This document shows, in pieces, positions 7,748 through 20,945 of a stretch of DNA of 24,674 bases. Position 1 is the stretch's first letter; the number at the start of each line of letters is the position of its first letter. Under the pieces are notes generated by a model that searched no databases, had not been told where the DNA came from, and saw only the letters and a list, made by a program, of their open reading frames with translations. This DNA is from a virus. The DNA lies in IMG/VR virus record IMGVR_UViG_3300005588_000093, positions 1-24,674 of that record; one strand, given 5' to 3'. Position numbers and translations under genes: made by a program.

Positions 7748-8316
7748 AGGCCGAAACGATTGTCTCGTTGATGATCGTTCCTCTCGTTTGGATCGTATAT
7801 CTTTTATTGAAAGACAAGATTGAAAAGTCCGAGGCCGTGACTCTCCGCGAGACAAATTTTCTCCGAACCGAACTTCAATTTTTGAATCAAAAACAAATCA
7901 ATCTCCTTGAAACCTTCGTGAATAAGTTCGCATCGTGGGAAAATAAGCTCAAGGACGTCGTTTCCGATATCAATGAAGGGAAAGATCCCTCTCAATCATT
8001 GGAGTGTTTTGAGGGCGAATCCGAGCGTCTCCGGGATTACTTTTCGACGTCGATTGATCTTGTTAAAAATGAAATGAAAAGACTTGAAAAAGTTGTCCGG
8101 ACACGGGAGAATAAATCAATTCACGGGAACGGGGACTTGACCTCAACAATTGAAAGAGAGATATCCCATCAAAAAGATTTGATCGCGAAGTTTCACGAAA
8201 TTTTGAGATCGATGAATTTTAAAAACAAATCTCTTGAGAGGATGATCGGACTCAATCAAAGGAAAATCGCCGCTCTCGAGAAAAATGTTTCATTCGGAAA
8301 AATATCAATAAAATAG
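7744..8316 (+). CDS. N-terminal TM protein with long coiled coil, candidate inner spanin
   Basis: A 190-residue protein starting in an ATGA overlap with the lipoprotein gene. Residues ~5-22 form one TM helix (IVSLMIVPLVWIVYLLL). The remainder, residues ~25-180, is charged and helical with coiled-coil character. An inner-membrane anchor plus periplasmic coiled coil is the layout of an i-spanin, though i-spanins are often shorter and usually precede the lipoprotein rather than follow it. Alternatively it could be a structural or superinfection-exclusion membrane protein. Topology is seen; the role is inferred from the neighbour. Confidence 0.5.
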   Translation: MKAETIVSLMIVPLVWIVYLLLKDKIEKSEAVTLRETNFLRTELQFLNQKQINLLETFVNKFASWENKLKDVVSDINEGKDPSQSLECFEGESERLRDYFSTSIDLVKNEMKRLEKVVRTRENKSIHGNGDLTSTIEREISHQKDLIAKFHEILRSMNFKNKSLERMIGLNQRKIAALEKNVSFGKISIK

Positions 8317-8366: not shown

Positions 8367-8639
8367 ATGACACCAAAAAGAAGAGAACTCATAATGAAAG
8401 TCGCGGACGACGATCTCCGTTGTTTTCCAATACTGCACAAAATTGATCGGTTTGTTCACGCGGACAAGATCCTCGAATATTTCGTCAAGGAAAAGATCAC
8501 GGGGAAACGATTTTATGATGATTTTTATTTAAGAAAATTCAAATTGTCATGGTTGAGCATGGGAAAATGGGCCGTAATGAAACTTCAAAAAGAAAAACAT
8601 TATCGCCCGATTATCGCCGGGAAGGATTTTCGAGTTTAA
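8367..8639 (+). CDS. Hypothetical basic protein, last gene of rightward late block
   Basis: I do not recognise this 90-residue basic protein. RBS AAGGA lies about 10 bases before ATG. It has many Lys, Arg, Phe and Tyr residues and two Cys-free helical stretches. Its TAA stop overlaps by four bases with the stop of the convergent leftward gene, so the two transcription units collide with no spacer and no recognisable terminator. The 50-base gap before it holds a GGCC-ctccct-GGCC inverted repeat and a small ATCA/TGAT hairpin, neither followed by a T run. Confidence 0.5.
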   Translation: MTPKRRELIMKVADDDLRCFPILHKIDRFVHADKILEYFVKEKITGKRFYDDFYLRKFKLSWLSMGKWAVMKLQKEKHYRPIIAGKDFRV

Positions 8640-8953
8640 CAAAAAGAATTGAGTTCTCTTGATAATTGGAGGCGATCTTGATGGGCCTCATAATCCGAAT
8701 CGTCACAATCTTGAATCTCTTTGACGAGAAAATCGATCGCGGTTTCGTCGTGTTTTTCGTGTCCATTATCATCGAAAATTCTCTCGATCTCCTCTTGAGA
8801 ATATGAGTGTTTTTCCATAAGGAACACGGCCAGGCCTCGAACAATAATATCGTTTTTATATTCAAGTTTTTTTTCCGCATTGGAACACTTGAAACAAAGG
8901 CCGGAGGCGACAAGGAAATCAATTGATGAGCATTTCGAACAAGGTTTTTTCAT
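8636..8953 (-). CDS. CxxC zinc-ribbon-like small protein
   Basis: A 105-residue protein starting at the ATG at 8953; a TTG two codons upstream is less likely. The N-terminus has paired cysteines CSKC and CFKC spaced by 12 residues, a small zinc-ribbon pattern, followed by an acidic helical region. The start lacks a well-spaced Shine-Dalgarno. A TATAAC hexamer on the same strand lies six bases upstream, so a leaderless start is possible. It is the last gene of the leftward block and converges with the rightward block. It may be a DNA- or protein-binding accessory; no family is recognised. Confidence 0.55.
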   Translation of the reverse strand: MKKPCSKCSSIDFLVASGLCFKCSNAEKKLEYKNDIIVRGLAVFLMEKHSYSQEEIERIFDDNGHEKHDETAIDFLVKEIQDCDDSDYEAHQDRLQLSRELNSFC

Positions 8954-8973
8954 CCTCAAGTTATAACACGACC

Positions 8974-8989
8974 AGGCCTGGCCAGGCCT
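8974..8989. repeat. Perfect 16-bp palindrome AGGCCTGGCCAGGCCT
   Basis: The sequence equals its own reverse complement. Together with the two bases before it, it packs three CCWGG and three GGCC sites into 18 bases. It lies in the 49-base gap just upstream of the leftward CxxC gene, about where a -35 element for that gene would be. Flanking CTCAAG (8955-8960) and CTTGAG (8988-8993) form an outer inverted repeat. Confidence 0.85.
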
Positions 8990-9002
8990 TGAGTTGTAAA
9001 AT

Positions 9003-9356
9003 TTATATATATTCTTTTAAGTTGTCTTTAACATGAGCAAGATCATAAGCAACAAAACCGCGACCGCCTTGATTATTGATATCATCGAGAAACTCCCTTT
9101 GAGACGGGCGCGTCCTCGCTTGTTCGTTTTTCTTGACCTCAATCGCGAGGAACTTTCCGTCCGGTAATATTCCAAGTATATCGGAAACACCGTTTCGATC
9201 CCATTTTGATTTCGAACGGAAACGTTTTCCGCTTGGATCATAAACACCGCCGGAGTTGTTTCTCCAGGCCGTTATTTTTTTGAATCTTAAAAACTCGAGA
9301 ATTGAGTTTTGAATTTCGTTTTCAGATAAGGGACGTCCGATTCCTTTCAAGCTCAC
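9003..9356 (-). CDS. VRR-NUC domain nuclease
   Basis: A 117-residue protein starting at GTG (9356) with RBS GAGGAGA six bases upstream. The length fits stand-alone phage VRR-NUC proteins. Motifs in order: E14 and an N-terminal helix, then 'GVSDILGILPDGKFLAIEVKK', in which D59 and the E73-x-K75 pair form the PD-(D/E)xK-type active site, then 'TRPSQREFLDDINNQGGRGFVA', which is the family's C-terminal conserved helix and strand. Members act as structure-specific or Holliday-junction-type endonucleases, so a role in resolving replication or recombination intermediates is likely. Its start overlaps the end of the exonuclease gene by 35 bases, so the two are co-translated. Confidence 0.88.
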   Translation of the reverse strand: MSLKGIGRPLSENEIQNSILEFLRFKKITAWRNNSGGVYDPSGKRFRSKSKWDRNGVSDILGILPDGKFLAIEVKKNEQARTRPSQREFLDDINNQGGRGFVAYDLAHVKDNLKEYI

Positions 9357-9906
9357 GAAGTCTCCTCAATATTCGCTCCATTGCGATTCGATCACTCTTC
9401 GCATTGTGATGATTCAATTTTATCGAAAAATGCTCGGAAAGGGAATCAAGAGACGTTGATTTCGGAATCGGAAAACCTCGTTTTCGGAGGTCAACGGCGA
9501 TCGTGTCGGTCGATAAGTTCATATCGTCGCGAAAGAATTGATGAAAATAATCAAACTCTTCGAAGTGATAATGAAAGTCCATTTTTAAAAAGGCGAAATC
9601 GAAGTGATAAAAACCCTCTTTATTGTATGGCCTGGAATGACAAAGAAAATAAAACGGTTCCTTCGGGATAAACTCGATAAGGCGTTCGAGAGTTTCCTTC
9701 CTTGGAGGAAATTTCATGGCCAGGCCTTTGCGAATCCGATGAATCTTGAACGCCTCCTCGCTCCATTTATAAGGACGAGAAGTGAGTTCAAGTTCGGCCA
9801 GGGTTTCCAGGGTTTCGAAATCCAAGATCCCGAAAGATCCCGTGATCCAATCGTCTTGACTCGGATTGAGTCCGGTTGTTTCAAGGTCGCATGAGAGAAT
9901 CTTCAT
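9322..9906 (-). CDS. DEDDh 3'-5' exonuclease (DnaQ-like)
   Basis: A 194-residue protein. ATG 9906 is chosen because it begins MKILSCDLETTGL, with Exo I acidic residues D7 and E9 at the usual place, and lies one base after the upstream TGA; a start at 9927 would add 7 residues. Exo II is seen as 'CHSRPYNKEGFYHFDFAFL', with an insertion compared with the usual short motif. Exo III is 'HHNAKSDRIAMERIL', an HxAxxD pattern giving the DEDDh class. The 'EEAFKIHRI' segment is also typical. Such enzymes degrade DNA or RNA 3'-5' for proofreading or end trimming. It is one of two in this operon. Confidence 0.87.
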   Translation of the reverse strand: MKILSCDLETTGLNPSQDDWITGSFGILDFETLETLAELELTSRPYKWSEEAFKIHRIRKGLAMKFPPRKETLERLIEFIPKEPFYFLCHSRPYNKEGFYHFDFAFLKMDFHYHFEEFDYFHQFFRDDMNLSTDTIAVDLRKRGFPIPKSTSLDSLSEHFSIKLNHHNAKSDRIAMERILRRLRELERNRTSLI

Positions 9907-9907
9907 T

Positions 9908-10126
9908 TCACTCGAAATCTCTCGCATCAAACCAGGCCGAAGTGTATTTTCCCGGAGCGGTTTGAATCCCGACTCGTTTGAATCCTTCGCGATCCTCAAT
10001 GAACTCGACTTCCTGGCCCTTGAAGGACTCGAGGAGAGTTCCCTTATTATGTTCGAGATTTGTTTTGACGTTCACTTTCGTTCGAACGTGCGGTTTCGTC
10101 ACTCCGTTATTGTTATTTTTTGCCAT
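9908..10126 (-). CDS. Hypothetical small beta-rich protein
   Basis: A 72-residue protein with a strong RBS, AAAGGAGAAAAGCA, before ATG. After a polar Asn-rich N-terminus (MAKNNNN) the sequence is beta-like with charged residues and ends 'GKYTSAWFDARDFE'. I do not recognise a family; the pattern might be a small SH3-like or nucleic-acid-binding fold, but that is a guess. It is immediately upstream of the exonuclease, one base apart, so it is probably co-translated with it. Confidence 0.6.
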   Translation of the reverse strand: MAKNNNNGVTKPHVRTKVNVKTNLEHNKGTLLESFKGQEVEFIEDREGFKRVGIQTAPGKYTSAWFDARDFE

Positions 10127-10138
10127 TGCTTTTCTCCT

Positions 10139-10402
10139 TTATAAAATTATTCCCGAGTTTTTTTGAGATTGATCATGTAGTTTCACAATTTCCCGGAGAG
10201 TTTTCACTTCATAAACGGCGGCGTTGAACTCAATTATAAACTTCTCAATCGCCTCGACGAGAACTTTCGTGTCAACGATTTCCGGAATCGTCATATCGGG
10301 CGGCGGATTTTGAACGAGGTGTTGTTGACCTTGCAAAAATTGAAGTAATATCGCGACCGGATTGTCGTCTATTTTCTTTTTATTCGGATCTTGTTGAGAC
10401 AC
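10139..10402 (-). CDS. Hypothetical small helical protein
   Basis: An 87-residue protein starting at GTG 10402; AAGGAG eight bases upstream decides the start. It has a polar N-terminus, a Gln-rich helix (ILLQFLQGQQHL), a Pro-rich linker, then a heptad-like helix ('VLVEAIEKFIIEFNAAVYEVKTLREIV'). It may oligomerise through this helix. It overlaps the preceding gene by 34 bases. No function can be read from the sequence. Confidence 0.55.
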   Translation of the reverse strand: MSQQDPNKKKIDDNPVAILLQFLQGQQHLVQNPPPDMTIPEIVDTKVLVEAIEKFIIEFNAAVYEVKTLREIVKLHDQSQKNSGIIL

Positions 10403-10614
10403 TTTTTGAACTCCTTTTTGATTTCGTTGAACAATCCTCGAGACTCACGTTTCAATTTCCATTGATGAAAACCGAGAGTCCCTTCAATTGCAATTATATA
10501 TTTTTTATCGTGACGATGATTGAGGTTATTGAAGAAAACTTCTCCCTCCGTTTTTCCCCAACAATCGCGAACGAATTGTTTGACGTCCTCGTCTCTTTGA
10601 TCAAGCGTTTCCAT
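10369..10614 (-). CDS. Hypothetical small basic protein
   Basis: An 81-residue protein. ATG 10614 is preferred over an ATG nine codons upstream because it forms a TAATG overlap with the endolysin stop and has AAGGG seven bases ahead. It is charged, with a central 'KKYIIAIEGTLGFHQWKLK' strand-like stretch and a Lys/Arg-rich C-terminus. It lies directly downstream of the endolysin gene. I see no TM helix, so it is not an obvious holin or antiholin. Function unknown. Confidence 0.5.
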   Translation of the reverse strand: METLDQRDEDVKQFVRDCWGKTEGEVFFNNLNHRHDKKYIIAIEGTLGFHQWKLKRESRGLFNEIKKEFKKCLNKIRIKRK

Positions 10615-11288
10615 TATAGGGCCCTTATCATCTTGATCCAAAAATCGGCCATCTTTCGAACTCCGAAATCCTCTTCGTCTAAAAATTGGGCCGTGTCCTC
10701 CGTTTGATAATCGCCGAAGAACGGTTCGAATAACATGGCCATGACTCCGCGTTTTTCCGCCTCAAAAACAAAGGTTGATCCGCGATCATTTTTCTTGAGA
10801 GCTTTTATCCCTCGAACTCCTTTATATTCACGACGTTTCACAATATCAAATTGAGTTGAAAATCCGTCGATCATAAGATTCGCATAATTCGCGGTTTTGT
10901 CCGCTCCGTGTTTGATGAGCATTTCACAACCTCTCGCCTCCGGAACTCCGGCCGCATTGAAATGAAACTCAATCGCGAGATCAATCTTATCTTTTTCGAG
11001 TTGTTTCGCGAGAGTTCTCATCGCGCTCGAATAAGATCCCTCCTCTCGAAGATATTTGAAAACTTGTTTCCCGTTTGGAATCATTTCGGCGTTGATGATA
11101 TCAACGATCCGACGATTCAATTGAAACTCTCTTTGATTGTTATAAGTTCTCATTCCCCATTTGTTCGGCGTATGGCCTGGGATGATCGCGACTCTCCGGA
11201 TTTCGGATTGAGGTTGTTGAATGACGTCGTCGATTTGATCCGGAGTCGTTGACGGAGTTCTCTCTCTTTTTTTAAAGCATTTAAACAT
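10614..11288 (-). CDS. Endolysin, N-acetylmuramoyl-L-alanine amidase (Amidase_3 type)
   Basis: A 224-residue protein with RBS AAGGGGA before ATG. The Amidase_3 zinc site is visible: His39 in 'AIIPGHT', Glu54 in 'NNQREF', His109 in 'AIEFHFNA', and catalytic Glu188 in 'LFEPFFGD'. The first ~30 residues are polar and unstructured with no signal peptide or SAR helix, so release should need a holin. No cell-wall-binding domain is evident. It would cut the amide bond between N-acetylmuramate and L-alanine at the end of infection. Oddly, it lies within the leftward operon of replication and recombination genes, right after the methyltransferase, and not near the membrane-protein cluster at 6680-8316. 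Confidence 0.9.
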   Translation of the reverse strand: MFKCFKKRERTPSTTPDQIDDVIQQPQSEIRRVAIIPGHTPNKWGMRTYNNQREFQLNRRIVDIINAEMIPNGKQVFKYLREEGSYSSAMRTLAKQLEKDKIDLAIEFHFNAAGVPEARGCEMLIKHGADKTANYANLMIDGFSTQFDIVKRREYKGVRGIKALKKNDRGSTFVFEAEKRGVMAMLFEPFFGDYQTEDTAQFLDEEDFGVRKMADFWIKMIRAL

Positions 11289-12174
11289 TTTTGATTCCCC
11301 TTAATATGGTTTCAATCACCTTGACCGTGACCGCGTTTCCGATTTGTTTATATCTTTGATTGTCCGAGACTCCCTCCGTCCAACCGGGAGGAAAGGATTG
11401 AAGAACTTCGGCCTCTTCGGGAGTGAGTTCTCGGAGAGTTCCCTTATCATCAACGAAAGTTTTCGAGGATTGTCCCGAACAAGCCCATCCTCCCGTGAGA
11501 GTGTTCGCTTTTCCGTCGCGATATTCTCGATCTTGATAATATTTTCCGTTCTCGTTTTGTTTCCAAGTGTCGAGAACGGTTCCGTCGGGTTTCGGAGTCC
11601 TTCCGGACTTCGACCAACGAACGAGAGAATGATTTCGAACTCCTCGATCCCATAAGTCTTTCGTTTCGATATCCCAATTGAACCAATAAAGTCGATCTCT
11701 CATTTGAGGCGTGATGAAATCCGAACAAATTCTCATCGGTTGAACTCCAAGAACTTCGGAAATCGTGTCTCGATCCTCTTCGCTCATTGAGGCGACGTTC
11801 TCAAGGAGAAAATATTTCGGTTTTTTCACTCGAACAATATGAGCGAAGGCATAAAACAAATTCGAACGAGATCCCTTGAGGCCCTTTCGGTTCTTTGTTT
11901 GGATTGATAAATCTTGACAAGGAGATCCGGCGAACAAAAAATCAACTCTCGGGAGACAACCGATTCGAAAATCGTTCGGTTCTCCGTTCTCATCAAAAAC
12001 ATAAGACGAAATATCTCCGATATTCTTTGAGTGATTATGAGGAAAGTTCTTCAAATAAGTTTCGATTGAGGACTTGTTGATCTCGCTCCAATAAGAACAA
12101 AACGCCGAAGGGAAAACTCTTTTCATTGCGAGAGAGAATCCTCCGACTCCCGTGAATAAATCTCCATAATTCAT
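11281..12174 (-). CDS. DNA cytosine-5 methyltransferase
   Basis: A 297-residue protein with a full set of C5-MTase motifs. Motif I is DLFTGVGGFSLA (5-16). Motif IV is GSPCQDLS with catalytic Cys86. Motif VI is ENV (125-127), motif VIII QMRDRLYW (157-164), motif IX ELTPEEAEVLQSFP and motif X RYKQIGNAVTV. The target-recognition region (~168-240) is short. Motifs IV-VIII (DLSIQ...RKGL, LLENVASM..ED...IS..L) recall the Dnmt3-like branch. It methylates the phage's own DNA at an unknown site, probably to evade restriction; GGCC or CCWGG are candidates from genome composition. It starts in an ATGA overlap with the upstream exonuclease and overlaps the endolysin start by eight bases. Confidence 0.93.
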   Translation of the reverse strand: MNYGDLFTGVGGFSLAMKRVFPSAFCSYWSEINKSSIETYLKNFPHNHSKNIGDISSYVFDENGEPNDFRIGCLPRVDFLFAGSPCQDLSIQTKNRKGLKGSRSNLFYAFAHIVRVKKPKYFLLENVASMSEEDRDTISEVLGVQPMRICSDFITPQMRDRLYWFNWDIETKDLWDRGVRNHSLVRWSKSGRTPKPDGTVLDTWKQNENGKYYQDREYRDGKANTLTGGWACSGQSSKTFVDDKGTLRELTPEEAEVLQSFPPGWTEGVSDNQRYKQIGNAVTVKVIETILRGIKNV

Positions 12175-12893
12175 AGATCAATCACCTTCGTTTGAAAGTT
12201 TAAAGGATTCAAAAACGATGCGAGTTGATTTTTTCTCATTTCACGAAACCAAACTTTTTCGTCGCCGTTCCAATAAAACCCGGCGTCCTTCGCTTTTTGT
12301 CTCCCGTCATAAGAAACTTGAGCGAGAACTTTCACTCGAGGAGAATCCGCGTTGTCGATTATAGTATTGATATCGTACTTGGAAAGAACTTGGAGCATTG
12401 TGAGAACGTCGGTCACGGCCCGATGGGCGAAAGGATTGACGAACCCATGACAAGCGGCCAGGTATATAAGGGAACGAGATCTCATCGTCGAGGGATAATC
12501 AATATCCGTTTGAGTGTCGATCCAATTTCGTTCCCAGGCCGGAGAGGTCACGTCCATTTTTTGACGAGTGATAAAATGATTCAAGATCGGCTTGTCAAAT
12601 TGGTTCCCATTATGGCCGACAACTCGATCCGCTTTAATTAAAAGAGAATGAAGTCTCGAGATCGCCTCGCTTGGAATGAGTCCGTGATTCATTATCATAT
12701 CATTATTGATCCCGGTATATTCCGAGGCCTGGGAGTGAACTCCTTGTTCTTCATTGACGAGAAGATTCTCAATTTCGAGAGGCGTGTTCGTGTCGGTTTC
12801 CCATAAAACCGCGCCGATTTCGGTCACGATTGTTTTGTCCTTTGACGTGTCGAAACTCGATCCGGTTTCGATATCAACTCCGAGTATTTTCAT
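12171..12893 (-). CDS. DEDDh exonuclease with C-terminal DUF5710-like domain
   Basis: A 240-residue protein with RBS AAGGAGATAAAAT before ATG. Exo I is 'GVDIETGSS' (D7, E9), Exo II 'GHNGNQFDKPIL' and Exo III 'HRAVTDVLTML' (HxAxxD), giving a DEDDh exonuclease over about residues 1-180. The last ~45 residues, 'VKVLAQVSYDGRQKAKDAGFYWNGDEKVWF', match the small DUF5710-like module often fused to phage and plasmid DNA enzymes. The likely role is 3'-5' degradation or end processing in replication or recombination, next to the SF2 helicase. The domain names come from recall of the family patterns. Confidence 0.88.
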   Translation of the reverse strand: MKILGVDIETGSSFDTSKDKTIVTEIGAVLWETDTNTPLEIENLLVNEEQGVHSQASEYTGINNDMIMNHGLIPSEAISRLHSLLIKADRVVGHNGNQFDKPILNHFITRQKMDVTSPAWERNWIDTQTDIDYPSTMRSRSLIYLAACHGFVNPFAHRAVTDVLTMLQVLSKYDINTIIDNADSPRVKVLAQVSYDGRQKAKDAGFYWNGDEKVWFREMRKNQLASFLNPLNFQTKVIDL

Positions 12894-12907
12894 ATTTTAT
12901 CTCCTTA

Positions 12908-14434
12908 TTAGTAAAAACGTTTTGTCACGTTCGTCCATTTCCCATCGCGTTCGATCTTAATTTTGACCGGACACCGTTTATAAATTGATTGTTCTTCGAC
13001 AAATTGCTTATGAGCATAAGTCCCAATTTTTATATAATCGATATATGTATTCAATAAAGTCATATAAGTAATTTTGAGACACTTATTCCCGGCCCTTGAA
13101 ACATAATCATCCTCGATCGTCCATTGCATAAGTTTGATCGTGTCCTCTTTTTTTAATTTGTTATTGAAGGTATGATTCCCGGCGGTTGTTGTGAGTTTCT
13201 TTGTCCGATCAACGGGTTTCGTCTCCTCCTTATAAAGTTCATAAGCGCAATTTTTACAATGAGACGCCGGGAGAAAAATAAAATGTTCACAACTCGGACA
13301 AATAATCGCCTTTTTTTCCGCCTTGTTCGCCTTTGATTTTGGATCATTGACGACGGGATTGTTCGGATGGCCCAACGCCTCGACAACTTCTCCGTAATCG
13401 AGAAACAAACAATCTTTTTTCCCAGGAAATAAGCGAAGTCCTCGTCCGCATAATTGAACATATAAGACGGGAGATCTCATCGGCCTCATGTTCACGATCG
13501 CGTGAATCGCGTCGTAATCATAGCCCTCCGAAACCATTGTGACGGAAGTTATATGACGAACGGAACCTTTTTCAAACTCGTCGATATTGAGTTTTTGTTC
13601 GCCCTTTTTAAGTTTGGAATGAATAATTGTCGCCGCCTCATACTTCGAGATTTCCTCTTGAACGAGTTCCGCGTGTTCAATACAAGTACAACTCCAAACG
13701 ATTTTATTTCGTCCGGAGAGTCGAGGGAGAGCGTCCGCGACTTGAAGTTTTATTTTCTCTTGATCCTTGGAGAGTTTTTCAACGTCTTTTTGAACGAAGT
13801 CTCCTTTCCTTTTCCGAAGTTTGGACGTGTCGAATCCTTCCTTTGTTGATTGAAAGATCGGATCGACAATAAATCCGGCGGCGATCATTTCCTTGAGAGT
13901 CTTTCGATAGGTGATTCGTTTGATCTCTTTGTCCTGGCCGAAGATATAACCTCCGGAGGCCGTGAAAGGAGTCGCCGTGAATCGAACGATCTTGAGGTTC
14001 GGATTCTTTTCCCGAAGTCTTAATATAAAGTTTTGATAAACGAGAGAATTTTCCGCATTATGGGCCTCGTCAATTATCAATAAATGAAGGAAGGGAGTTG
14101 TTTTTTCAACCGTATTGATCGAGGCGACCGTGATCTCGTTTCCGTCGTCATAATCTCCAAGTGATCCGCAATAAAGACCGATATTCTCATCGTCGATCGC
14201 GCCGATCAATTTGTCTCGCGTTTGAGTAACGAGTTTCACTTGATTGACGAGAACCATTGACTTGAGAACACGCCCTCCGAGTTTCATTTTCTCGAGAGAT
14301 TTTTTCAACAATAAAGTGAAAATGATTGTCTTTCCCGATGCGGTCGGGAGAACAATGAGAACGTCATTCTCTTTTCGAATTGAGTTCCAAGTTGTTTCGA
14401 TGCAATCGGCTTGATATGGCCTGGCCGTAATCAT
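12908..14434 (-). CDS. SF2 DEAH-type helicase
   Basis: A 508-residue protein starting in an ATGA overlap with the upstream gene. Helicase motifs in order: Q-like 'RPYQAD' (5-10), Walker A PTASGKT (30-36), DEAH (121-124), FTATPF (151-156), and motif VI 'QLCGRGLRLFPGK' around 326-338. A four-cysteine knuckle (CPSC...CKNC, ~375-395) follows, then a ~100-residue C-terminal domain. This is the layout of phage RecG/UvsW-like or type III restriction-like helicases that remodel branched DNA during replication and recombination. No restriction nuclease domain is present, so it is not a restriction subunit on this evidence. Confidence 0.9.
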   Translation of the reverse strand: MITARPYQADCIETTWNSIRKENDVLIVLPTASGKTIIFTLLLKKSLEKMKLGGRVLKSMVLVNQVKLVTQTRDKLIGAIDDENIGLYCGSLGDYDDGNEITVASINTVEKTTPFLHLLIIDEAHNAENSLVYQNFILRLREKNPNLKIVRFTATPFTASGGYIFGQDKEIKRITYRKTLKEMIAAGFIVDPIFQSTKEGFDTSKLRKRKGDFVQKDVEKLSKDQEKIKLQVADALPRLSGRNKIVWSCTCIEHAELVQEEISKYEAATIIHSKLKKGEQKLNIDEFEKGSVRHITSVTMVSEGYDYDAIHAIVNMRPMRSPVLYVQLCGRGLRLFPGKKDCLFLDYGEVVEALGHPNNPVVNDPKSKANKAEKKAIICPSCEHFIFLPASHCKNCAYELYKEETKPVDRTKKLTTTAGNHTFNNKLKKEDTIKLMQWTIEDDYVSRAGNKCLKITYMTLLNTYIDYIKIGTYAHKQFVEEQSIYKRCPVKIKIERDGKWTNVTKRFY

Positions 14435-14766
14435 TGAAGAGTTTCTCCAAGAACAACGCGTTTCATCTTCGCGACTTCGTTGAGAAGTCCCTTTTTCGTC
14501 TCTTGACTCATTGTCGGATAAACGATCTCCATTGAAAGAGATTCGATTGTCCCGATGAGAGTTCTTGTTTCCATTTTATGAAATCCCTCTCTCATCGCCT
14601 TTGATCTTTCCTCAAGGTTTGATTGAAGGTGTTTAAAAAAGAGAACGAACGCGAGAAGAAAAACAACGAGAAAATAATTTTTCGGCGTTGGATCGAAGGT
14701 CGCGAAAGAGAGAACGATCACGGCGTCGAAAATCAAACTCCATTTGTTTTCCTTGATATATCTCAT
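14431..14766 (-). CDS. Small two-TM membrane protein
   Basis: A 111-residue protein with two hydrophobic helices at ~9-24 (WSLIFDAVIVLSFATF) and ~31-45 (YFLVVFLLAFVLFF) forming a hairpin, followed by a charged helical cytoplasmic-like tail. It starts and ends in ATGA overlaps, tightly within the early-looking operon upstream of the helicase. Possible roles are membrane anchoring of the replication complex, superinfection exclusion or a holin partner for the downstream endolysin. Nothing in the sequence decides between them. Confidence 0.6.
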   Translation of the reverse strand: MRYIKENKWSLIFDAVIVLSFATFDPTPKNYFLVVFLLAFVLFFKHLQSNLEERSKAMREGFHKMETRTLIGTIESLSMEIVYPTMSQETKKGLLNEVAKMKRVVLGETLQ

Positions 14767-14960
14767 TTTTTCTTTCCAGTATTCTTTGAATTATTTTCAT
14801 TAAATTTCCCCATTTTGATTATCGAATCAACTTGAAAAAGCTCCGACGCGCTCATGTTCGCGACTTGTTTCTTGATTTCCAGGGTTTCTTTTTCAAGTAA
14901 TCCCTTTTCGGTCATAAGTTCGACAAGACAATCTCCGATTGACTTCATTGGTGTTTTCAT
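14763..14960 (-). CDS. Hypothetical small helical protein
   Basis: A 65-residue helical protein with RBS AGGAGAAGAT before ATG. It is Lys/Glu/Met-rich with a basic Asn/Lys tail, and no TM segment or cysteine motif apart from a single Cys. Start and end are ATGA overlaps with its neighbours. I do not recognise it; it might be a small regulatory or binding partner. Confidence 0.55.
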   Translation of the reverse strand: MKTPMKSIGDCLVELMTEKGLLEKETLEIKKQVANMSASELFQVDSIIKMGKFNENNSKNTGKKK

Positions 14961-15226
14961 ATCTCTTCTCCTAGTTTGACAATATAGTCTTTATTCATCG
15001 CCGGATCGGTTTCAACTTCAATTGAGACAACGGATCTCTTTAAACTTGGAAGTCCCGAAAGAACTTTTTTCGTTTGAAAGTTATACGCGATCAATGAGAT
15101 ATTTTTCCCGGGCGAGAGATAAGTCGGTTCCTCGCGAAAGACGAGTTCGCCTTTCCGCTTTTCATAAATTTTCATCCAATCGTTCGGAGTGACTTCGACT
15201 CTTTTATATATTTTGGTTTTATTCAC
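14957..15226 (-). CDS. Hypothetical small beta-rich protein (GTG start)
   Basis: An 89-residue protein starting at GTG 15226. That start is preferred because AAGGGG stands six bases ahead, matching the RBS used by other genes here. An in-frame TTG at 15304 would extend the gene through the terminator hairpin at 15244-15265 and is less likely. The protein is charged with alternating strands, beginning 'NKTKIYKRVEVTPNDWMKIY'. No family is recognised. It is the first gene after the internal terminator, so its expression probably depends on read-through. Confidence 0.6.
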   Translation of the reverse strand: MNKTKIYKRVEVTPNDWMKIYEKRKGELVFREEPTYLSPGKNISLIAYNFQTKKVLSGLPSLKRSVVSIEVETDPAMNKDYIVKLGEEI

Positions 15227-15243
15227 AATTTTCCCCTTGAAAT

Positions 15244-15265
15244 AAAAAGCCCCTTGAGGTGGGGC
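15244..15265 (-). terminator. Intrinsic terminator inside the leftward operon
   Basis: On the minus strand the order is GCCCC, loop ACCTCAA, GGGGC, then TTTTT and ATT. This is a five-base GC stem with a U-tract, a classic Rho-independent terminator. It lies after the DUF669 gene and directly before the RBS of the next gene, so it should limit transcription into the helicase and methyltransferase genes unless antitermination or read-through occurs. Confidence 0.75.
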
Positions 15266-15274
15266 CAGGCCTGG
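15265..15274. repeat. CCAGGCCTGG palindrome beside the terminator
   Basis: A perfect 10-bp palindrome holding two CCWGG and one GGCC. It abuts the 5' arm of the leftward terminator and a second small hairpin (GGACT/AGTCC, 15273-15289). It is one of two places, with 8974-8989, where such sites cluster in a non-coding gap. Confidence 0.6.
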
Positions 15275-15359
15275 ACTTATAACGAGTCCAATCTCCGGGG
15301 ACAAGGTTGTTCGAAATTCCGGCGTCTCCTCCCGTTTTATGAATCTCTTTTATATAATC

Positions 15360-15794
15360 CTAATCAAAGGGCGTCGATTCCGGTTGAGAACCTTCGGCGA
15401 CGTAATCGTTTGGACAAGCTGAAAAGCCCGTGACGCGATTTTTCTCGCCATACGAGTCGGTTTTCACGGTCAATTTAACCATTGTCTCCAGGCCGACAAG
15501 TGCTTGTTCGTCGTTGAATAATCCCGGAGATCCTCCGGCGGCGACGATCATTGACTTGATTCGTCCGAGTCCAATTTGAACGGCCTCGGGATTGTCGTTC
15601 TTAATATTGAACATTTCCCAAAACTTTCGACCGTTTTGATTCTCGTCCGTGACCGTGAATTGACAATCAATCATAAGGCCTCCGTTCTTTGTCTCTTTAA
15701 GTTCGGCCGTTTCAACCGCCGCTCGATAAGTCCCGGCCGGAATACAACCGCCGTTCGACTCCTCAACTTCATTTAAGTCAAAATTAAAACTCAT
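15360..15794 (-). CDS. DUF669-family phage protein, likely ssDNA-binding
   Basis: A 144-residue protein with RBS AAAAAGGAGCATCAAA before ATG. The pattern 'MSFNFDLNEVE...IPAGTYRAAVETAELKETKNGGLMI' with later 'IGLGRIKSMIVAAGG' is characteristic of DUF669 phage proteins. These are usually found beside a Sak4/AAA-type recombinase, as here, where the start overlaps the Sak4-like stop (ATGA). Members are thought to be beta-barrel single-strand DNA-binding proteins; the binding role is inferred from context. Its TAG stop is followed by 133 non-coding bases with a terminator. Confidence 0.85.
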   Translation of the reverse strand: MSFNFDLNEVEESNGGCIPAGTYRAAVETAELKETKNGGLMIDCQFTVTDENQNGRKFWEMFNIKNDNPEAVQIGLGRIKSMIVAAGGSPGLFNDEQALVGLETMVKLTVKTDSYGEKNRVTGFSACPNDYVAEGSQPESTPFD

Positions 15795-16543
15795 TTTGAT
15801 GCTCCTTTTTGTTTGGTTGTTTCTTGATTTGAGTTCAAGATTTTATTGATAATATGATTCATATTCGGATCTTCGAATTGTTTAAGTTTCCCGGAACGAT
15901 CTCCGGCGATCGCCTTGTCATAAGTTGACGTGACGAGTTTTCGAATTTCCTTTCCTTCGTCGTTCATAAATTTTCGATATTGAAAAACCTCATCGACTAG
16001 GGCCGGAACTCTTTGAGAGATCTTTCCGTTGAGATCAACTCCGACAAATCTCCGTGAGAGATCATCTTTGTCCGCGACTTCGAGGGCCAGGAATAAAACA
16101 TTGTAAGGCTTATAGTCTCTCATTTGTTTAACGAGATCCGTTATTTTATCGGAATAATCGCCCCATAATCTCAATGAATCTTTCGCGTCCGGATATTTTT
16201 TCTTCATTGATTCAACGAGGCATTGACCGACCTCCGTGAGAGAATCAATCACAATCCACTTATATTTTTTCTTCATTTCGTCTTTCGACAAAACGTTCGT
16301 GAATAAATGAATGAGCTTTTCGAATCGCATATCCCGACTCATTGGAACGTTGTTCTTGTCAACCGTACAATCATAAACGTCGATGATCTCATCTTGAAGA
16401 GATAAAAGTCCGTTTTCCATATTGACGATGAGAGTTTTTCCGGGAAGTGTTTTCGCGAGAGAAGTCTTTCCGATTTTTGGTTGACCGTAAACGAGCGCAA
16501 CAATGCGCGCATCTTGTTTGATCTTTTTCGTGTCCGTAAACAT
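15791..16543 (-). CDS. Sak4-like RecA-fold ATPase (AAA_24), ssDNA annealing/recombination
   Basis: A 250-residue protein. ATG 16543 is chosen because AAGGGGAAAATAAT precedes it; an in-frame ATG ten codons earlier lacks such a site. Walker A is GQPKIGKT (20-27), the Walker B strand is 'KWIVIDS' near ~115-120, and 'LFLALEVADKDDL' resembles the later sensor region. Length and gene partner (DUF669 protein) fit Sak4-type single-strand annealing proteins, which act with an SSB in phage homologous recombination. It is the first gene of the leftward block, just beyond the divergent control region. Confidence 0.85.
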   Translation of the reverse strand: MFTDTKKIKQDARIVALVYGQPKIGKTSLAKTLPGKTLIVNMENGLLSLQDEIIDVYDCTVDKNNVPMSRDMRFEKLIHLFTNVLSKDEMKKKYKWIVIDSLTEVGQCLVESMKKKYPDAKDSLRLWGDYSDKITDLVKQMRDYKPYNVLFLALEVADKDDLSRRFVGVDLNGKISQRVPALVDEVFQYRKFMNDEGKEIRKLVTSTYDKAIAGDRSGKLKQFEDPNMNHIINKILNSNQETTKQKGASK

Positions 16544-16555
16544 ATTATTTTCCCC

Positions 16556-16584
16556 TTGATTGATTGAAGGCATTGAACTATTAT
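16556..16584 (+). promoter_or_regulatory. Predicted rightward promoter for Cro-like and primase genes
   Basis: TTGATT (16556-16561) and TATTAT (16579-16584) are spaced by 17 bases, matching sigma70-type -35 and -10 at 4/6 and 5/6. The predicted start (~16591) lies next to the palindrome at 16593-16604. Confidence 0.5.
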
Positions 16585-16600
16585 CTCAAAACATTGTCAA
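16572..16600 (-). promoter_or_regulatory. Predicted leftward promoter for Sak4 operon
   Basis: On the minus strand a perfect TTGACA (16600-16595) is followed after 17 bases by TTCAAT (16577-16572), a weaker -10 at 4/6. The palindrome at 16593-16604 covers the -35 box, so repressor binding would block it. Confidence 0.5.
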
Positions 16601-16604
16601 CAAT
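16593..16604. promoter_or_regulatory. Operator candidate ATTGT-CA-ACAAT
   Basis: A perfect inverted repeat with five-base arms and a two-base centre, located between divergently transcribed genes. It overlaps the leftward -35 and the predicted rightward transcription start. Position beside a Cro-like gene makes it the natural binding site for that protein. A second palindrome with the same arms is at 22408-22421. Confidence 0.6.
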
Positions 16605-16624
16605 AAAAAAAGGGACTCAACTCA

Positions 16625-16837
16625 ATGAAACTTCATAAATACTTGAAAGACACCGGAATCACGATCGCTCGTTTCGCGAGATCATGCGATATAAATGAAA
16701 ATACAATGAACACTTATGTTCACGAAAAAGCGGAACCTAGTCTCAAAAATGCTTTAACAATTGAAGAACAATCTCACGGAGCGATTACATTGAAAGAACT
16801 CATCCTTGAGAGAACCGAAAAGAACTCTCAAGAATAA
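16625..16837 (+). CDS. Cro-like helix-turn-helix regulator
   Basis: A 70-residue protein with RBS AAAGGGA before ATG. The sequence 'LKDTGITIARFARSCDINENTMNTYVHEKAEPSLKNALTIEEQSHGAITLKEL' fits a small Cro/YdaS-type HTH, with the recognition helix around residues 24-34. It has no dimerisation or cleavage domain of a CI-type repressor. Position at a divergent promoter and a palindrome just upstream suggest that it represses its own and the leftward early promoter. It lies 26 bases before the primase gene, so both are probably on one transcript. Confidence 0.78.
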   Translation: MKLHKYLKDTGITIARFARSCDINENTMNTYVHEKAEPSLKNALTIEEQSHGAITLKELILERTEKNSQE

Positions 16838-16863
16838 GTCTTGAACAAAAAGGGGAAAACTTT

Positions 16864-19011
16864 ATGTTCGAGAAATACTATAACGAATATTTTGAAAAAG
16901 ATCTAATTGTCATCCCATTGAGGGGAAAGATTCCCGTTCTTAAAAATTGGAGTCTCTTCGCGAAAACGCGTCCGAGCGAACTTCTCCTCGACTCATGGGA
17001 AAATAAATATAAAAGATTCAATATCGGTTTGATATGCGGCGAACTCTCCGGAGTGATCGCGATTGATATTGACAAAGAAGAGGCATTGAAAAAAGTCCCT
17101 CTTTCCCCGGTCACTAAAAAAGGGAAAAAAGGAGAGACGAGATTCTTTCGATATAATGGAGAAGTGAATTTCAAGCGTCACGATCTCGGGATTGAACTCT
17201 TGTCCAATGGAAATCAAACCGTCCTCCCTCCGTCGATTCATCCGGAGACAAAGGAGGCTTATGTTTGGAACGGACAATTCGATCTCTTGAGTTTTGATAT
17301 TGAAGATCTCCCGATTCTCGATCCCGATTGGTTGAGAGAGATCGGAATGATCCCGGTTGATAAACAAGTTTCATCCGGAAGGCATAATCGACTTATTGAA
17401 ATTTGTTCGGCCATGTTCGCGAGAGGAGAAGATCCAACGGCGATCGCGAACGAGTTGATTCGATATGACGAGGAGAATCACTCTCCGGCGTATTTTACGG
17501 ACGACTCCGAAGCTCATGGCGGAAAGGGATTCAATTCAGCTTTAAAGATGATCGCCTCCGTTTCGGAAACAATAACGAGAAGAGGAGGGGACGTCTCTCC
17601 CAAAAAGTTCGAAATCGTATTCGGCGAAAAGGAAGTCGAAAAAGCAATCGAAGAGAACGAGAAAAAAGAACAAATGAAAGAGGTTATATATCCGGAACCT
17701 CCGGGAATGATCAAAGAGATTCAAGATCATATTCTTTCGATATCTCATAAGCCTCGAGATAAGTTCGCCCTGGCCGGAGCGTTGGGACTCATAGGAACTC
17801 TCCTTTCAAATAAGGTCAAGTTTCACGAATCGACTCCGAACTTATATCAATTATTGATCGCGGAGTCGGGAGAGGGGAAAGACGTTCCGCTCAAGGCCCC
17901 GAAAGAATTATTGATCGAGGCCGGATTGTTGCAATACGTCGGGCTTGAATCATATCGAGGGGACAAATCCGTCGTGAAAAAATTTGAATCCCAACGGGAA
18001 CGAGTTGACACGCTGGACGAAGTGTCAAAACTTTTCCGCTCGATCAACTCAAAATCAAACACGTTTCAATCAAATATCGCGGAGACTCTCACGGAGATAT
18101 GGAACTCCTCATCGAAGTTGTTTATGGGCCATACGACGGCCGAAGGAACGACGGGTATGGTTTTCAAGCCGTGTCTCTCTATAATGGGCGCGACGACTCC
18201 GAACTCGTTCTCCGAGACGTTCTCGAGTTCAAACTTGATGCAAGGATTCGGAGGTCGATTTGTTTATATATTTGATGATCGGAGAGTCAAGCTCAAGAGA
18301 GTGAGACGAAAGAAGTCTCCCGAAAACGTCCTGGACTTTATAGAGTATTGGGGAACGCGGAACGTCGAGATCGAGAACGTCGATATTTCAAAGACCGCAA
18401 CGTTTCATCTTGACTTGTCTCAAAAAAATCCTCAAACCGTTCAACTCAAAGATCTCGAGTGTCCGGAACCGATTGACCTTCCGATTCAAGAGGAGGCGGA
18501 AAAATTACTTGATAAGGCGAGTCAATATTTCGACGAATATCGTTATCATTGCGAGGAAATGATCATCCCGATTGTTCTTCGAGCATATCAACAAATCGAG
18601 AAGATAATGATTATAAGCGCGATCGCGACGGCCTGGGAGGAAAAGGGAGTCATAAATCCGGCCCCGATGATAAAAGCGTCGGACGTTCAATTCGCGTGGG
18701 AATACGTTGAGGCGACAATCAAATCGACGGCTATCTTTTTCGGAAGGAACTTGATACAATCTAGTTTCCAACGAGACGCCCAAAAAGTCTTAAAGGTTCT
18801 TCGAGGTTTCCCGAAAGGATTATCGAAAAAGGATCTCACTTATAAGTTGAGAAACTCGTTTAAGGCGAATCAACTCTATAATAAGCGCGACGGGATTATC
18901 ACTTCCTTATGCGAGGACGGACGACTCAAGGAGTTCAAGGTCAAACCCGACGAGGGGAAAGGCGGAACGGGGACAACTCTTTTCGTCTTAAACAAGGATC
19001 TTGATAATTAA
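16864..19011 (+). CDS. Prim-pol / DUF3987-like primase-helicase fusion
   Basis: A 715-residue protein with RBS AAAAAGGGGAAAACTTT before ATG. Residues ~1-160 form a bifunctional primase/polymerase (AEP) domain: 'GLICGELSGVIAIDIDKEE' with D68 and D70 as metal ligands, and 'GIELLSNGNQTVLPPSIHPET' as motif III. After a linker, residues ~280-560 form a DUF3987-like ATPase domain with P-loop 'AESGEGKD' (~332-339) and 'DTLDEVSKLF' (~382-391) as a likely Walker B. The P-loop ends GKD rather than GK(S/T). The C-terminal part is helical with a possible winged helix. It would prime and unwind DNA in replication; no separate polymerase is visible in the window. Confidence 0.85.
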   Translation: MFEKYYNEYFEKDLIVIPLRGKIPVLKNWSLFAKTRPSELLLDSWENKYKRFNIGLICGELSGVIAIDIDKEEALKKVPLSPVTKKGKKGETRFFRYNGEVNFKRHDLGIELLSNGNQTVLPPSIHPETKEAYVWNGQFDLLSFDIEDLPILDPDWLREIGMIPVDKQVSSGRHNRLIEICSAMFARGEDPTAIANELIRYDEENHSPAYFTDDSEAHGGKGFNSALKMIASVSETITRRGGDVSPKKFEIVFGEKEVEKAIEENEKKEQMKEVIYPEPPGMIKEIQDHILSISHKPRDKFALAGALGLIGTLLSNKVKFHESTPNLYQLLIAESGEGKDVPLKAPKELLIEAGLLQYVGLESYRGDKSVVKKFESQRERVDTLDEVSKLFRSINSKSNTFQSNIAETLTEIWNSSSKLFMGHTTAEGTTGMVFKPCLSIMGATTPNSFSETFSSSNLMQGFGGRFVYIFDDRRVKLKRVRRKKSPENVLDFIEYWGTRNVEIENVDISKTATFHLDLSQKNPQTVQLKDLECPEPIDLPIQEEAEKLLDKASQYFDEYRYHCEEMIIPIVLRAYQQIEKIMIISAIATAWEEKGVINPAPMIKASDVQFAWEYVEATIKSTAIFFGRNLIQSSFQRDAQKVLKVLRGFPKGLSKKDLTYKLRNSFKANQLYNKRDGIITSLCEDGRLKEFKVKPDEGKGGTGTTLFVLNKDLDN

Positions 19012-19070
19012 AATTCTTAATATCTCAATGTTCAATTCTTATCATCTTGAAGGGTTTCTTCGGTTCTCCC

Positions 19071-19126
19071 TATATGGTATATATACGTTTATATATGTAT
19101 TATATAAATATATTAGTTTTTTAAGA
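19071..19126. repeat. AT-rich TA-step tract
   Basis: About 56 bases that are nearly all A and T (TATATGGTATATATACG... through TATATAAATATATTAG and a T run). It stands out against the mid-40s percent GC neighbourhood. It could be a DNA-unwinding element or simply a promoter-rich spacer. Confidence 0.65.
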
Positions 19127-19252
19127 ACTATAAGAACAAGCATTGAGTCAAGAGAATTTTCTCAATCAAAACAAGAGGTTCCAATTTTGGAGGGTTTCAT
19201 TTTCAAAAAGGAAAGTTCCAAGGAAACTCCGCTATGACGCGAAGAGAATTGA

Positions 19253-19276
19253 GGAGAGTTTCACGGAGAGTTTCAC
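19253..19276. repeat. Tandem 12-bp direct repeat GGAGAGTTTCAC
   Basis: Two exact adjacent copies at 19253-19264 and 19265-19276. Related GTTTC cores occur at ~19052 and ~19192, and reverse-complement forms occur at 19221-19230 (AGGAAACTCC) and 19286-19291 (TGAAAC). The last lies inside a CGAAA/TTTCG inverted repeat (19281-19296). The pattern resembles iterons bound by a replication protein. Confidence 0.7.
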
Positions 19277-19321
19277 TTTTCGAAATGAAACTTTCGAGTA
19301 TATAAAAAATAAGGAGGACTT

Positions 19322-19567
19322 ATGACGGACGACAAATATTTGAGATTGAAAAGATTATTGAAATCGAAAGGGATTCACGACGTCGTTCTCAATATCGAAA
19401 CACCGACAACCGATGCTCCATATATATCGGGAACCGTTCATCCGGTTCGAACTCCCGTCCATACGGGAGAGATTATATTGAAGTTGTCCTATAAGGTTCG
19501 TCCGGACGATATGAGAGCGGTTGATCATGCTCTCACGATATTGAAGGAACTCAAGGAGATCGAATGA
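19322..19567 (+). CDS. Hypothetical small protein
   Basis: I do not recognise this 81-residue protein. The RBS is the strongest in the window (AAGGAGGACTT before ATG). The N-terminus is basic and helical (YLRLKRLLKSKGIHD), the middle is beta-like with His and Pro (GTVHPVRTPVHTGEIILKL), and the C-terminus is helical (DDMRAVDHALTILKELKEIE). It is the first gene after the presumed origin and leads into the block of virion-like genes. Confidence 0.6.
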   Translation: MTDDKYLRLKRLLKSKGIHDVVLNIETPTTDAPYISGTVHPVRTPVHTGEIILKLSYKVRPDDMRAVDHALTILKELKEIE

Positions 19568-19586
19568 TTTTCCGAGAAGTTCAATG

Positions 19587-19592
19587 TATAAT
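19587..19592 (+). promoter_or_regulatory. Possible -10 element (TATAAT) before accessory virion genes
   Basis: A perfect TATAAT preceded by TG stands in the 56-base gap before the gene at 19624. No good -35 is seen at 16-18 bases, so an activator or a phage-modified polymerase would be needed if it is a promoter. Confidence 0.3.
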
Positions 19593-19623
19593 TTTATTGA
19601 TGAAACAAATAAGGAAAAATTAA

Positions 19624-20013
19624 ATGAGTTTTGATAAGCCGGATTGTTTTTTCCGAGAGGAACAAGTTTGGAACTCCGTTTATGATCACGGAAAACAAAT
19701 CATCCGGACTCAAACTCGAAACAAGTGTATTCCGAAGATCGAAAGGATTCAAGTTTCCGATAAGGATTCCGAAGAGTCTTTCGTCTTTCCAAAAAATATA
19801 ACGGCGTTTTCAATTCGCGACTCCGGAAACTCTCGAATGAGATATTCCTATGAGACGGGAGAAGTTGAGAACGTTTCGGGAAACTTTTTGGAGTTCGGGC
19901 CGTACGCGATTTATAAGGAGAGTGAATTGAATCGAAAAGATTTTGACGATCTCACTCTTTATTTTTCAAGCTCGAAAGACAATAGAATCATTGAAGTTAT
20001 TTATTGGACTTAA
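19624..20013 (+). CDS. Hypothetical protein, possible virion accessory
   Basis: A 129-residue protein with AAGGA 9-10 bases before ATG. The second half is strongly beta (AFSIRDSGNSRMRYSYETG, then 'FGPYAIYKESEL', then 'DLTLYFSSSKDNRIIEVIYWT'). A C-terminal 'N..IEV.YWT' ending recurs in small phage structural proteins of unknown role. It sits at the front of a run of beta-rich proteins leading to the terminase. No enzyme motif is seen; virion role is an inference. Confidence 0.5.
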   Translation: MSFDKPDCFFREEQVWNSVYDHGKQIIRTQTRNKCIPKIERIQVSDKDSEESFVFPKNITAFSIRDSGNSRMRYSYETGEVENVSGNFLEFGPYAIYKESELNRKDFDDLTLYFSSSKDNRIIEVIYWT

Positions 20014-20025
20014 AAGGGAGAGTTT

Positions 20026-20622
20026 ATGAGTCACGAAAGAGAAACATTTCCAATCTTGGAAAACATTGAAAACGAAAAAGGAGAAGTTGTTCATAGGTTG
20101 AACGAAGGTGATCGTCCCGTTGCGGATGATCTCACAACTAAAAAGAACGGCCTCATCGGTTTTTCATTTAAAGATAAGGACGGGAGAGTTGTTCTCCCTC
20201 AACTAAATAACGAAGGCGCGATCACGGTTTCATTTGACGCCGGAACGACAATTCGAGGACGAGGCGCGGACGTTGACGGAGACAAGGCCGCGAAGATGGT
20301 TCTTGTTGACTTGACGTTGACCGCCGATCGAACTTATTCGAAATTATCCGCTCAAGGATCTTGTTTCCGAGACACGGAGTTCGAGGTTGTTTTGATTGAT
20401 GATTCCGCCGGATCTCCGGTTGAGACTCTCCTTGAAGAGTTTTTGACGGGGCCTGGACAATTCACAACGAAGTCGGGACTTGAAATCGACGAGTTTAATA
20501 CAACCGGATTCTCGGGAGTTGTAAAATTACAACTTCGCGCGATAAACTTGAATCGAGAATCAAAAACAATCGGTTCGATGAGTGTCAACGAGATAATCGC
20601 GAACACAACTCCAAACCCATAA
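20026..20622 (+). CDS. Hypothetical beta-rich protein, probable virion accessory
   Basis: A 198-residue protein with RBS AAGGGAGAGTTT before ATG. A polar N-terminus precedes a long beta-rich body (TVSFDAGTTIRGRGADVDG, 'MVLVDLTLTADRTYSKLSA', 'FSGVVKLQLRAINL'). It resembles a jelly-roll or head-decoration style protein, but I cannot name a family. Its position 12 bases after one beta-rich gene and 11 before another suggests a shared complex or co-assembly. Confidence 0.5.
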   Translation: MSHERETFPILENIENEKGEVVHRLNEGDRPVADDLTTKKNGLIGFSFKDKDGRVVLPQLNNEGAITVSFDAGTTIRGRGADVDGDKAAKMVLVDLTLTADRTYSKLSAQGSCFRDTEFEVVLIDDSAGSPVETLLEEFLTGPGQFTTKSGLEIDEFNTTGFSGVVKLQLRAINLNRESKTIGSMSVNEIIANTTPNP

Positions 20623-20633
20623 GGAAATGAAAG

Positions 20634-20945
20634 ATGAGTCATAATCTCCCCGAGTTTTCAGATAAGGCCTCCGACGGCGGCGTCAATAAAATTTTGACCG
20701 TCGCGGCCGGAGCGATCGAGGAACTCATTGTTGTCGGAACCGAAGTTCAATTCGAAAGAGAATACGTTTCTTTCGAGGCCCTCGACACCGGAATGAAATG
20801 GGGATATTCCGGAGATCCGGGAGGACAAATATTCAATTGCTATAAGTCGCAATTTTTTATCCTTCCTTTCGGCCCCGGGACTCGGATCTTTTTCTTAAAC
20901 ACGAAGGGAACTCCCGTCGATATTGCAATCGCGGAGGTTTCTTAA
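20634..20945 (+). CDS. Hypothetical small beta-sandwich-like protein
   Basis: A 103-residue protein with AAGGAAATGAAAG before ATG. It alternates strands ('KILTVAAGAIEELIVVGTEVQF', 'YVSFEALDTGMKWGYSG', 'QFFILPFGPGTRIFFLNTKG', 'DIAIAEVS'), a pattern seen in small phage fibre or decoration proteins. Its TAA is followed without spacer by the next ATG, so the two are probably translated together. Exact role unknown. Confidence 0.5.
   Translation: MSHNLPEFSDKASDGGVNKILTVAAGAIEELIVVGTEVQFEREYVSFEALDTGMKWGYSGDPGGQIFNCYKSQFFILPFGPGTRIFFLNTKGTPVDIAIAEVS

Follow-up and report, generated by a model that had tools for sequence, protein, structure and literature searches.

A candidate iteron origin of replication directly downstream of the PrimPol gene of an uncultured tailed phage

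A 310-base noncoding gap behind the PrimPol gene of an uncultured tailed phage contained clustered copies of a short motif next to the most AT-rich DNA of the genome. Judged from sequence, this gap is probably (about 0.72) an iteron origin read by the PrimPol winged helix and working like the PICI/SaPI rep-ori arrangement and the pRN1 replicon. PrimPol would bind the repeats, the AT tract would melt, and replication would start at the gap. For most environmental tailed phages, no replication origin is known.

The window, meaning the whole stretch of DNA analyzed, is the 24,674-bp virus record IMGVR_UViG_3300005588_000093. Record IMGVR_UViG_3300027845_000007 represents the same phage, with 2 differences across the window, and carries a 99-bp end repeat indicating a circular genome of 35,054 bp (the complete genome below). 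The gene map of the window is that of a tailed phage, with structural genes on the plus strand. An early block on the minus strand (8636 to 16573) encodes a VRR nuclease, exonucleases, a cytosine methylase, an SF2-type helicase, a DUF669 protein, and a Sak4-like ATPase; the HTH and PrimPol genes follow on the plus strand, then the gap, and then more plus-strand genes as far as the terminase. The features are as follows.

15360 to 15794, minus strand: DUF669 protein, SSB-like by PHROG
15791 to 16573, minus strand: Sak4-like AAA_24 ATPase, divergent, in a replication block common to relatives
16625 to 16837, plus strand: HTH protein of the Cro/CI type (HTH_26), directly upstream of PrimPol; possible replication repressor
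16864 to 19011, plus strand: presumed initiator, 715 aa, with PrimPol (PF09250), DUF3987 ATPase, and predicted C-terminal winged helix
19012 to 19321, no strand: candidate replication origin, the longest noncoding gap of the window
19012 to 19158, no strand: left hairpin region, nested and imperfect, surrounding the AT tract; bounds approximate
19048 to 19061, plus strand: iteron-like site 1, TGAAGGGTTTCTTC, the sole site left of the AT tract among the six
19071 to 19127, no strand: AT tract, presumed DNA-unwinding element
19180 to 19300, no strand: right imperfect hairpin region, formed by sites of opposite orientation; bounds approximate
19188 to 19201, plus strand: iteron-like site 2, TGGAGGGTTTCATT
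19220 to 19233, minus strand: iteron-like site 3, AGCGGAGTTTCCTT, reverse orientation
19252 to 19265, plus strand: iteron-like site 4, containing the first tandem copy of GGAGAGTTTCAC (19253 to 19264)
19264 to 19277, plus strand: iteron-like site 5, containing the second tandem copy of GGAGAGTTTCAC (19265 to 19276)
19284 to 19297, minus strand: iteron-like site 6, TCGAAAGTTTCATT, reverse orientation
19322 to 19567, plus strand: gene after the gap, 81 aa, without a family match

The original prediction had described this gap as the only long noncoding one, directly behind the prim-pol gene, and both points held in the window: the PrimPol stop is at 19011, and the runner-up intergenic gap measures 56 bp in a manual gene list. 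For the complete genome, the ranking hinges on an 84-aa minus-strand ORF that has no family match: counted as a gene, it leaves the gap longest, ahead of one of 142 bp; if it is not counted, a 393-bp stretch (L025, the same phage, 8591 to 8983) is longer. A terminator-like hairpin opens the latter stretch, and the ORFs bordering it are on the minus strand and include a NikA-like one. Behind the hairpin, at L025 8591 to 9175 and amid plus-strand genes, lie the 84-aa ORF and a 63-aa minus-strand protein whose mobilization domain is NikA-like (PF21983, E = 1e-7, above the cutoff). Gene calls in the scripted analyses followed simple longest-ORF rules.

The AT-rich tract and the repeats claimed for the gap were also recovered. 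The 50 bp at 19078 are 90% A+T, the maximum of the genome, and the most AT-rich 50-, 100-, 150-, and 310-bp segments of the complete genome all lie in or overlap the gap. The GGAGAGTTTCAC tandem is exact (19253 to 19276) and had no equivalent in 1,000 dinucleotide shuffles of the gap; one further exact period-12 tandem was found, in coding sequence at 7721. A tandem repeat of AAGGCCAGGAAA was noted at 7709 to 7752, where a small ORF has a lysine-rich 3' end. GTTTC/GAAAC cores occur in both orientations, as predicted, with four on the plus strand and two on the minus strand; six is the genome maximum per 310-bp segment (mean, 1.7) and is reached by 0.9% of segments. Allowing at most one mismatch, AGAGTTTC has 7 copies in the gap, one left and six right of the AT tract, and as many were found in 2 of 200 shuffles. 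The best 9-mer of the gap has 4 copies (equalled in 5/200 shuffles). The 9-mer count alone is not unique, as the 5 copies in the 450-bp stretch around the gap are reached by 3.2% of 156 other segments (top count, 6). Five or more 9-mer copies together with a 60-bp stretch of GC ≤0.2 were found in 2 of 462 genome segments, both at the gap. The repeats are weaker than those of relatives L058 and L101.

Nested inverted repeats had likewise been predicted, and the observation as a whole is real. RNA folding of 19012 to 19330 was stronger than in all 100 shuffles (z = −3.25), as was DNA folding of the gap (z = −2.75), but the longest exact inverted repeat is chance-like (478/1,000 shuffles). With folding corrected for GC, 2 of 566 genome segments were as extreme on the plus strand, one of them overlapping the gap, and 39 of 566 on the minus strand. 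The gap's only two GTG/CAC triplets sit in the two GGAGAGTTTCAC tandem copies, and the gap repeats could serve as primer start sites too; an excess of GTG/CAC as a primase signature was not general, being clear only in G018 and L139 among 12 elements counted. Between the window and L003, 22 differences were found over 10.2 kb, with none in the gap; none occurred anywhere from 18668 to 20836, and the absence of polymorphisms in the gap is therefore uninformative.

The 715-aa protein contains PF09250 prim-pol (residues 8 to 144) and DUF3987 (428 to 494) domains; excerpts of PMC5862659 describe DUF3987 as a predicted helicase between primase and winged helix. Its sequence had no matches to PDB chains (E up to 1). 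A structure model (mean pLDDT, 82) matched, in Foldseek, pRN1 ORF904 structures over the prim-pol part and MCM-type AAA+ proteins, with low global TM-scores. The last 115 residues modeled alone (pLDDT, 85) form helices followed by a two-strand wing, and their weak Foldseek matches (E of 0.016 and up) were mostly winged-helix regulators, with some methyltransferases. The C terminus is accordingly predicted to be a winged helix. A stand-alone 123-aa protein encoded at L116 265 to 636 (G010) is 65% identical over 88 residues (E = 1e-36) to residues 607 to 694, the winged-helix part, of the PrimPol that its own contig encodes. By its sequence, this protein is possibly a regulator or competitor at the origin.

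Conservation of the repeats in related phages, named as a check in the original prediction, was seen in two of the four relatives of at least 50% identity with downstream DNA (L133 and G018) and not in the others (L036 and L137). L133 (59 to 61% identical) has 428 bp between PrimPol and the next ATG, or 383 bp to a TTG start. This stretch includes an AT tract, and of its 7 AAGTTTCCC-like sites (0/200 shuffles), 2 lie to the left of the tract and 5 to the right; the core AGTTTC is common to these sites and the window. In G018 (57 to 58% identical, with a 127-bp end repeat), the 302-bp gap combines a hairpin and an AT tract with 7 ATAAGTGT-like sites (0/200 shuffles), of which 6 lie to the right of the tract. 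In the window, L133, and G018, the next genes after the gap have no significant mutual similarity, and PrimPol is the constant neighbor. L036 (56%) and L137 (50%) carry genes immediately after PrimPol and no such gap; a comparable element was not found in the 9.7-kb contig of L036, and the 10-kb contig of L137 yielded no more than a weak candidate, close to the opposite end of PrimPol. The L037 contig (40%) stops 103 bp past the PrimPol gene, and the contig of an 87% relative, L143, ends within PrimPol. In G018, the next gene apparently uses GGAGAGTTTCA as its ribosome-binding site and start, and the letters of the window tandem may therefore partly reflect something besides initiator binding.

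The 81-aa protein encoded after the gap was not found in the records of eight relatives, which shows little by itself, and had no similarity to the next gene of L036. A phage DNA similarity search with the window returned nothing informative, and a pattern scan of genome contigs gave 51 matches, none of them relatives. Readings of the gap as an att site, a known RNA, or a tRNA were rejected: no integrase was present among 23 different window proteins scanned with Pfam, and the window had no Rfam matches at the gathering threshold and no tRNA genes.

Iterons with an AT tract were more common 3' of related PrimPol genes than after other genes, which supports the predicted origin. A PrimPol alignment supplied the best 80 of 271 relatives; grouped at 60% identity together with the window and eight annotated phages, these gave 42 clusters, 40 of them with usable downstream DNA. 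A locus passed if the 450 bp around and after the PrimPol stop held at least 5 copies of a 9-mer and a 60-bp stretch at least 0.15 under the locus GC; this test was designed after the first elements had been noticed by eye. In this first set (from the best 80 of 271 relatives), 10/40 clusters passed, compared to 6/192 regions downstream of other large ORFs (P = 3e-5), and 9/39 compared to 5/167 without the window (P = 1e-4); upstream of PrimPol, 2/38 passed (control upstream, 13/188). Among 31 later loci tested, two without downstream DNA and eight duplicates were removed to leave 21 clusters. Dropped ahead of this later test, as the same phage or already used, were L132, L002, L024, L001, L003, L135, L138, and L159 to L162; L134, L136, and L143 were dropped for missing downstream DNA, L176 was also left out, and G018 entered as L155. 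Four of these 21 clusters passed, compared to 7/123 controls (P = 0.056); they include L133, which had come to attention before the test was run. Pooled without the window, both sets (the first from the best 80 of 271) gave 13/60 against 12/290 (P = 3e-5). The clusters that failed numbered 30/40 in the first set (from the best 80 of 271 relatives) and 17/21 in the later one. G018 fails, its repeats standing out only at the 8-mer level.

The motif varies by phage, with ACTCGTCAA in L058, AAACCCGTA in L115, TTTTTACCC in L071, GTGTAATG in L039, GTGTTAGC in L041, and GAGCTTAGC in L040. Two dense arrays were also observed. In G010, TGACCGTGA-like 9-mers recur as 24 direct copies over 450 bp around 28726, and L068 has 20 direct GCAGACCTG-like copies within 450 bp around 2701, soon after the PrimPol stop; GC is not low at the L068 array, which is possibly a coding repeat.

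Two-sided iteron sets were clear in the CRP-901-like cluster of Roseobacter phages, where a cassette spanning 262 to 297 bp lies 3' of PrimPol in 14 of 22 loci (motif list compiled after an earlier repeat count of loci). One strand carries its first iterons (TTTATTGCA or TTTATGGCA, for example), and an AT tract (GC, 0.08 to 0.15) and reversed iterons come next. Distances from the PrimPol stop were 13, 576, 706, 706, 781, 1,327, 1,327, 1,377, 1,488, 1,535, 1,577, 1,577, 3,927, and 3,927 bp. The loci without a scored cassette were L104, cut by the contig end; L113 and L114, bearing a variant motif in 9 copies; L078, L080, L085, and L087, with at most about 1.1 kb of downstream DNA; and L075, lacking a cassette in the 4.9 kb downstream of PrimPol. 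Between two iteron-type groups, PrimPol differs most in the C-terminal 96 residues (identity, 0.64 between types; 0.77 and 0.87 within), with other parts at 0.78 to 0.85 between and 0.79 to 0.91 within. Five of 10 fixed differences fall in these 96 residues (binomial P = 0.0045, confounded by shared ancestry), including those at 709, 712, and 713 at a putative helix of the winged helix; three more at the PrimPol start were excluded as start-site artifacts. This covariation and the predicted winged helix are indirect signs that PrimPol may bind the iterons. CRP-901 gp06 (OQ401623.1 1614 to 1892; L177 615 to 893), annotated as a hypothetical protein, coincides with the cassette (record positions 1622 to 1886) and is probably not a gene. 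Nothing relevant was found in a literature search on the CRP-901 replication origin.

GC skew, another check named at the outset, neither supports nor excludes the gap as the origin. Detrended skew turns at 16996 and 8685, near gene-orientation switches, and four-fold-site skew of plus-strand genes was 0.040 on one arm and 0.043 on the other. An origin in the divergent 51-bp gap at 16574 to 16624, near the skew minimum, was considered and rejected, as the skew turns there close to a gene-orientation switch.

The gap might instead be the promoter/operator of the following genes; the AT tract would then be promoter DNA, and the repeats would be operators for the small HTH protein or for some other regulator. 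The next gene has a strong ribosome-binding site (AAGGAGG precedes its start at 19322), one weak sigma-70-like match lies at 19017 to 19045, an HTH gene lies upstream, and GGAGAG-type letters precede start codons in relatives too. This reading is nonetheless unlikely: promoter-like sites are not clearly enriched in 16300 to 19700 (9, versus a shuffle mean of 6.1), the next genes are dissimilar in L133 and G018 whereas PrimPol is constant, and the CRP-901-like cassette sits 13 to 3,927 bp from PrimPol. A promoter may coexist with an origin in the gap.

That the gap is a pRN1-type stem-loop origin, with a large hairpin as the signal and the repeats as by-products of its arms, appears improbable. 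The gap does fold, beyond all shuffles, into two large imperfect hairpins, and pRN1 requires a stem-loop of ~100 nucleotides after its PrimPol gene (excerpts of PMC4234260). A hairpin, however, would need neither the exact tandem pair nor the iterons that, in relatives, lie mostly on the same strand to one side of the AT tract, and the longest exact inverted repeat is chance-like; the single large iteron-free stem-loop of pRN1 was not found. The mixed picture among the nearest relatives (L036 and L137 without a gap) would suit a degenerate AT-rich spacer or remnant with no replication role, a reading made very improbable by the repeat, AT, and folding statistics and by the recurrence of the element beside PrimPol.

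Under the preferred reading, an iteron origin, several PrimPol molecules would bind the GAGAGTTTCA iterons via the C-terminal winged helix. The MCM-like AAA+/DUF3987 domain would assemble on the site and melt the adjoining AT tract, the N-terminal prim-pol domain would synthesize the first primers on the single strands exposed in this way, and other phage and host proteins would then take part in building the forks. The upstream HTH protein probably limits initiator expression, and the HTH gene, the PrimPol gene, and the gap would therefore form one replicon unit. Tentatively, and at somewhat under even odds, DUF3987 PrimPol phages share a portable replicon consisting of an HTH repressor, a winged-helix PrimPol, and a matched iteron-AT-iteron cassette movable kilobases downstream. 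If true, a large group of tailed phages would follow the pRN1 plan as well. Looking 3' of PrimPol for iterons around an AT tract would yield testable origins for many uncultured phages and for the isolated Roseobacter phages CRP-901 and CRP-902.

Known systems were compared from excerpts of the cited articles. In the full-text literature searched (most subscription journals lying outside it), an iteron origin of DUF3987 PrimPol phages was not described, DUF3987 and iterons never appeared together, and PrimPol, iterons, and phage appeared together only in PMC7581432. According to excerpts of PMC4234260, the crenarchaeal plasmid pRN1 depends on genes for a repressor and a PrimPol and on a stem-loop that lies directly after them and works when moved; its authors propose the same arrangement for phage BIP-1. 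The window resembles pRN1 orf56-orf904-origin in its order of possible repressor, PrimPol-helicase-winged helix, and noncoding element just downstream (essential in pRN1; PMC4234260): an HTH_26 gene, which may encode a repressor, lies upstream of PrimPol, the ORF904 structures match the prim-pol fold, and prim-pol, helicase, and C-terminal winged helix are predicted in one protein, with a different helicase type. Unlike the iteron-free stem-loop and SF3 helicase of pRN1 (PMC4234260), the window has iterons and an AT tract, with DUF3987 and MCM-like Foldseek matches. Phage P4 alpha protein (PMC4234260) likewise joins primase and helicase in an initiator whose winged helix binds repeats of the origin. 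The P4 primase is of the TOPRIM type. NrS-1 phage PrimPol has a C-terminal helicase domain and primes at short defined sequences including GTGA and GTGG, whereas the excerpts of PMC8718748 do not mention an iteron origin.

As in iteron origins, the window has clustered copies of a short motif in noncoding DNA and an adjacent AT-rich tract, for which unwinding is presumed. For SCCmec Cch2/CCPol-MP, the excerpts of PMC7581432 describe direct repeats that come after the helicase operon and are recognized by the C-terminal domain of the helicase, which binds them, and a primase that favors start sites at the putative origin; these are separate proteins of a chromosomal cassette, whereas the window encodes one PrimPol-helicase fusion in a phage. 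PICI/SaPI elements have primase and initiator genes, sometimes fused, with an iteron origin directly after; in Escherichia coli PICIs two iteron sets flank an AT-rich region, and in SaPI Rep the C-terminal domain recognizes the origin (excerpts of PMC6092414 and PMC7581432). The candidate origin of the window also lies directly downstream of a primase-helicase gene. The PICI/SaPI initiators belong to other helicase families, in contrast to the DUF3987 PrimPol of a full tailed phage, and the window repeats are few, degenerate, and mostly on one side of the AT tract. A PrimPol-linked origin of this kind would tie phage replication to the pRN1 and PICI replicons.
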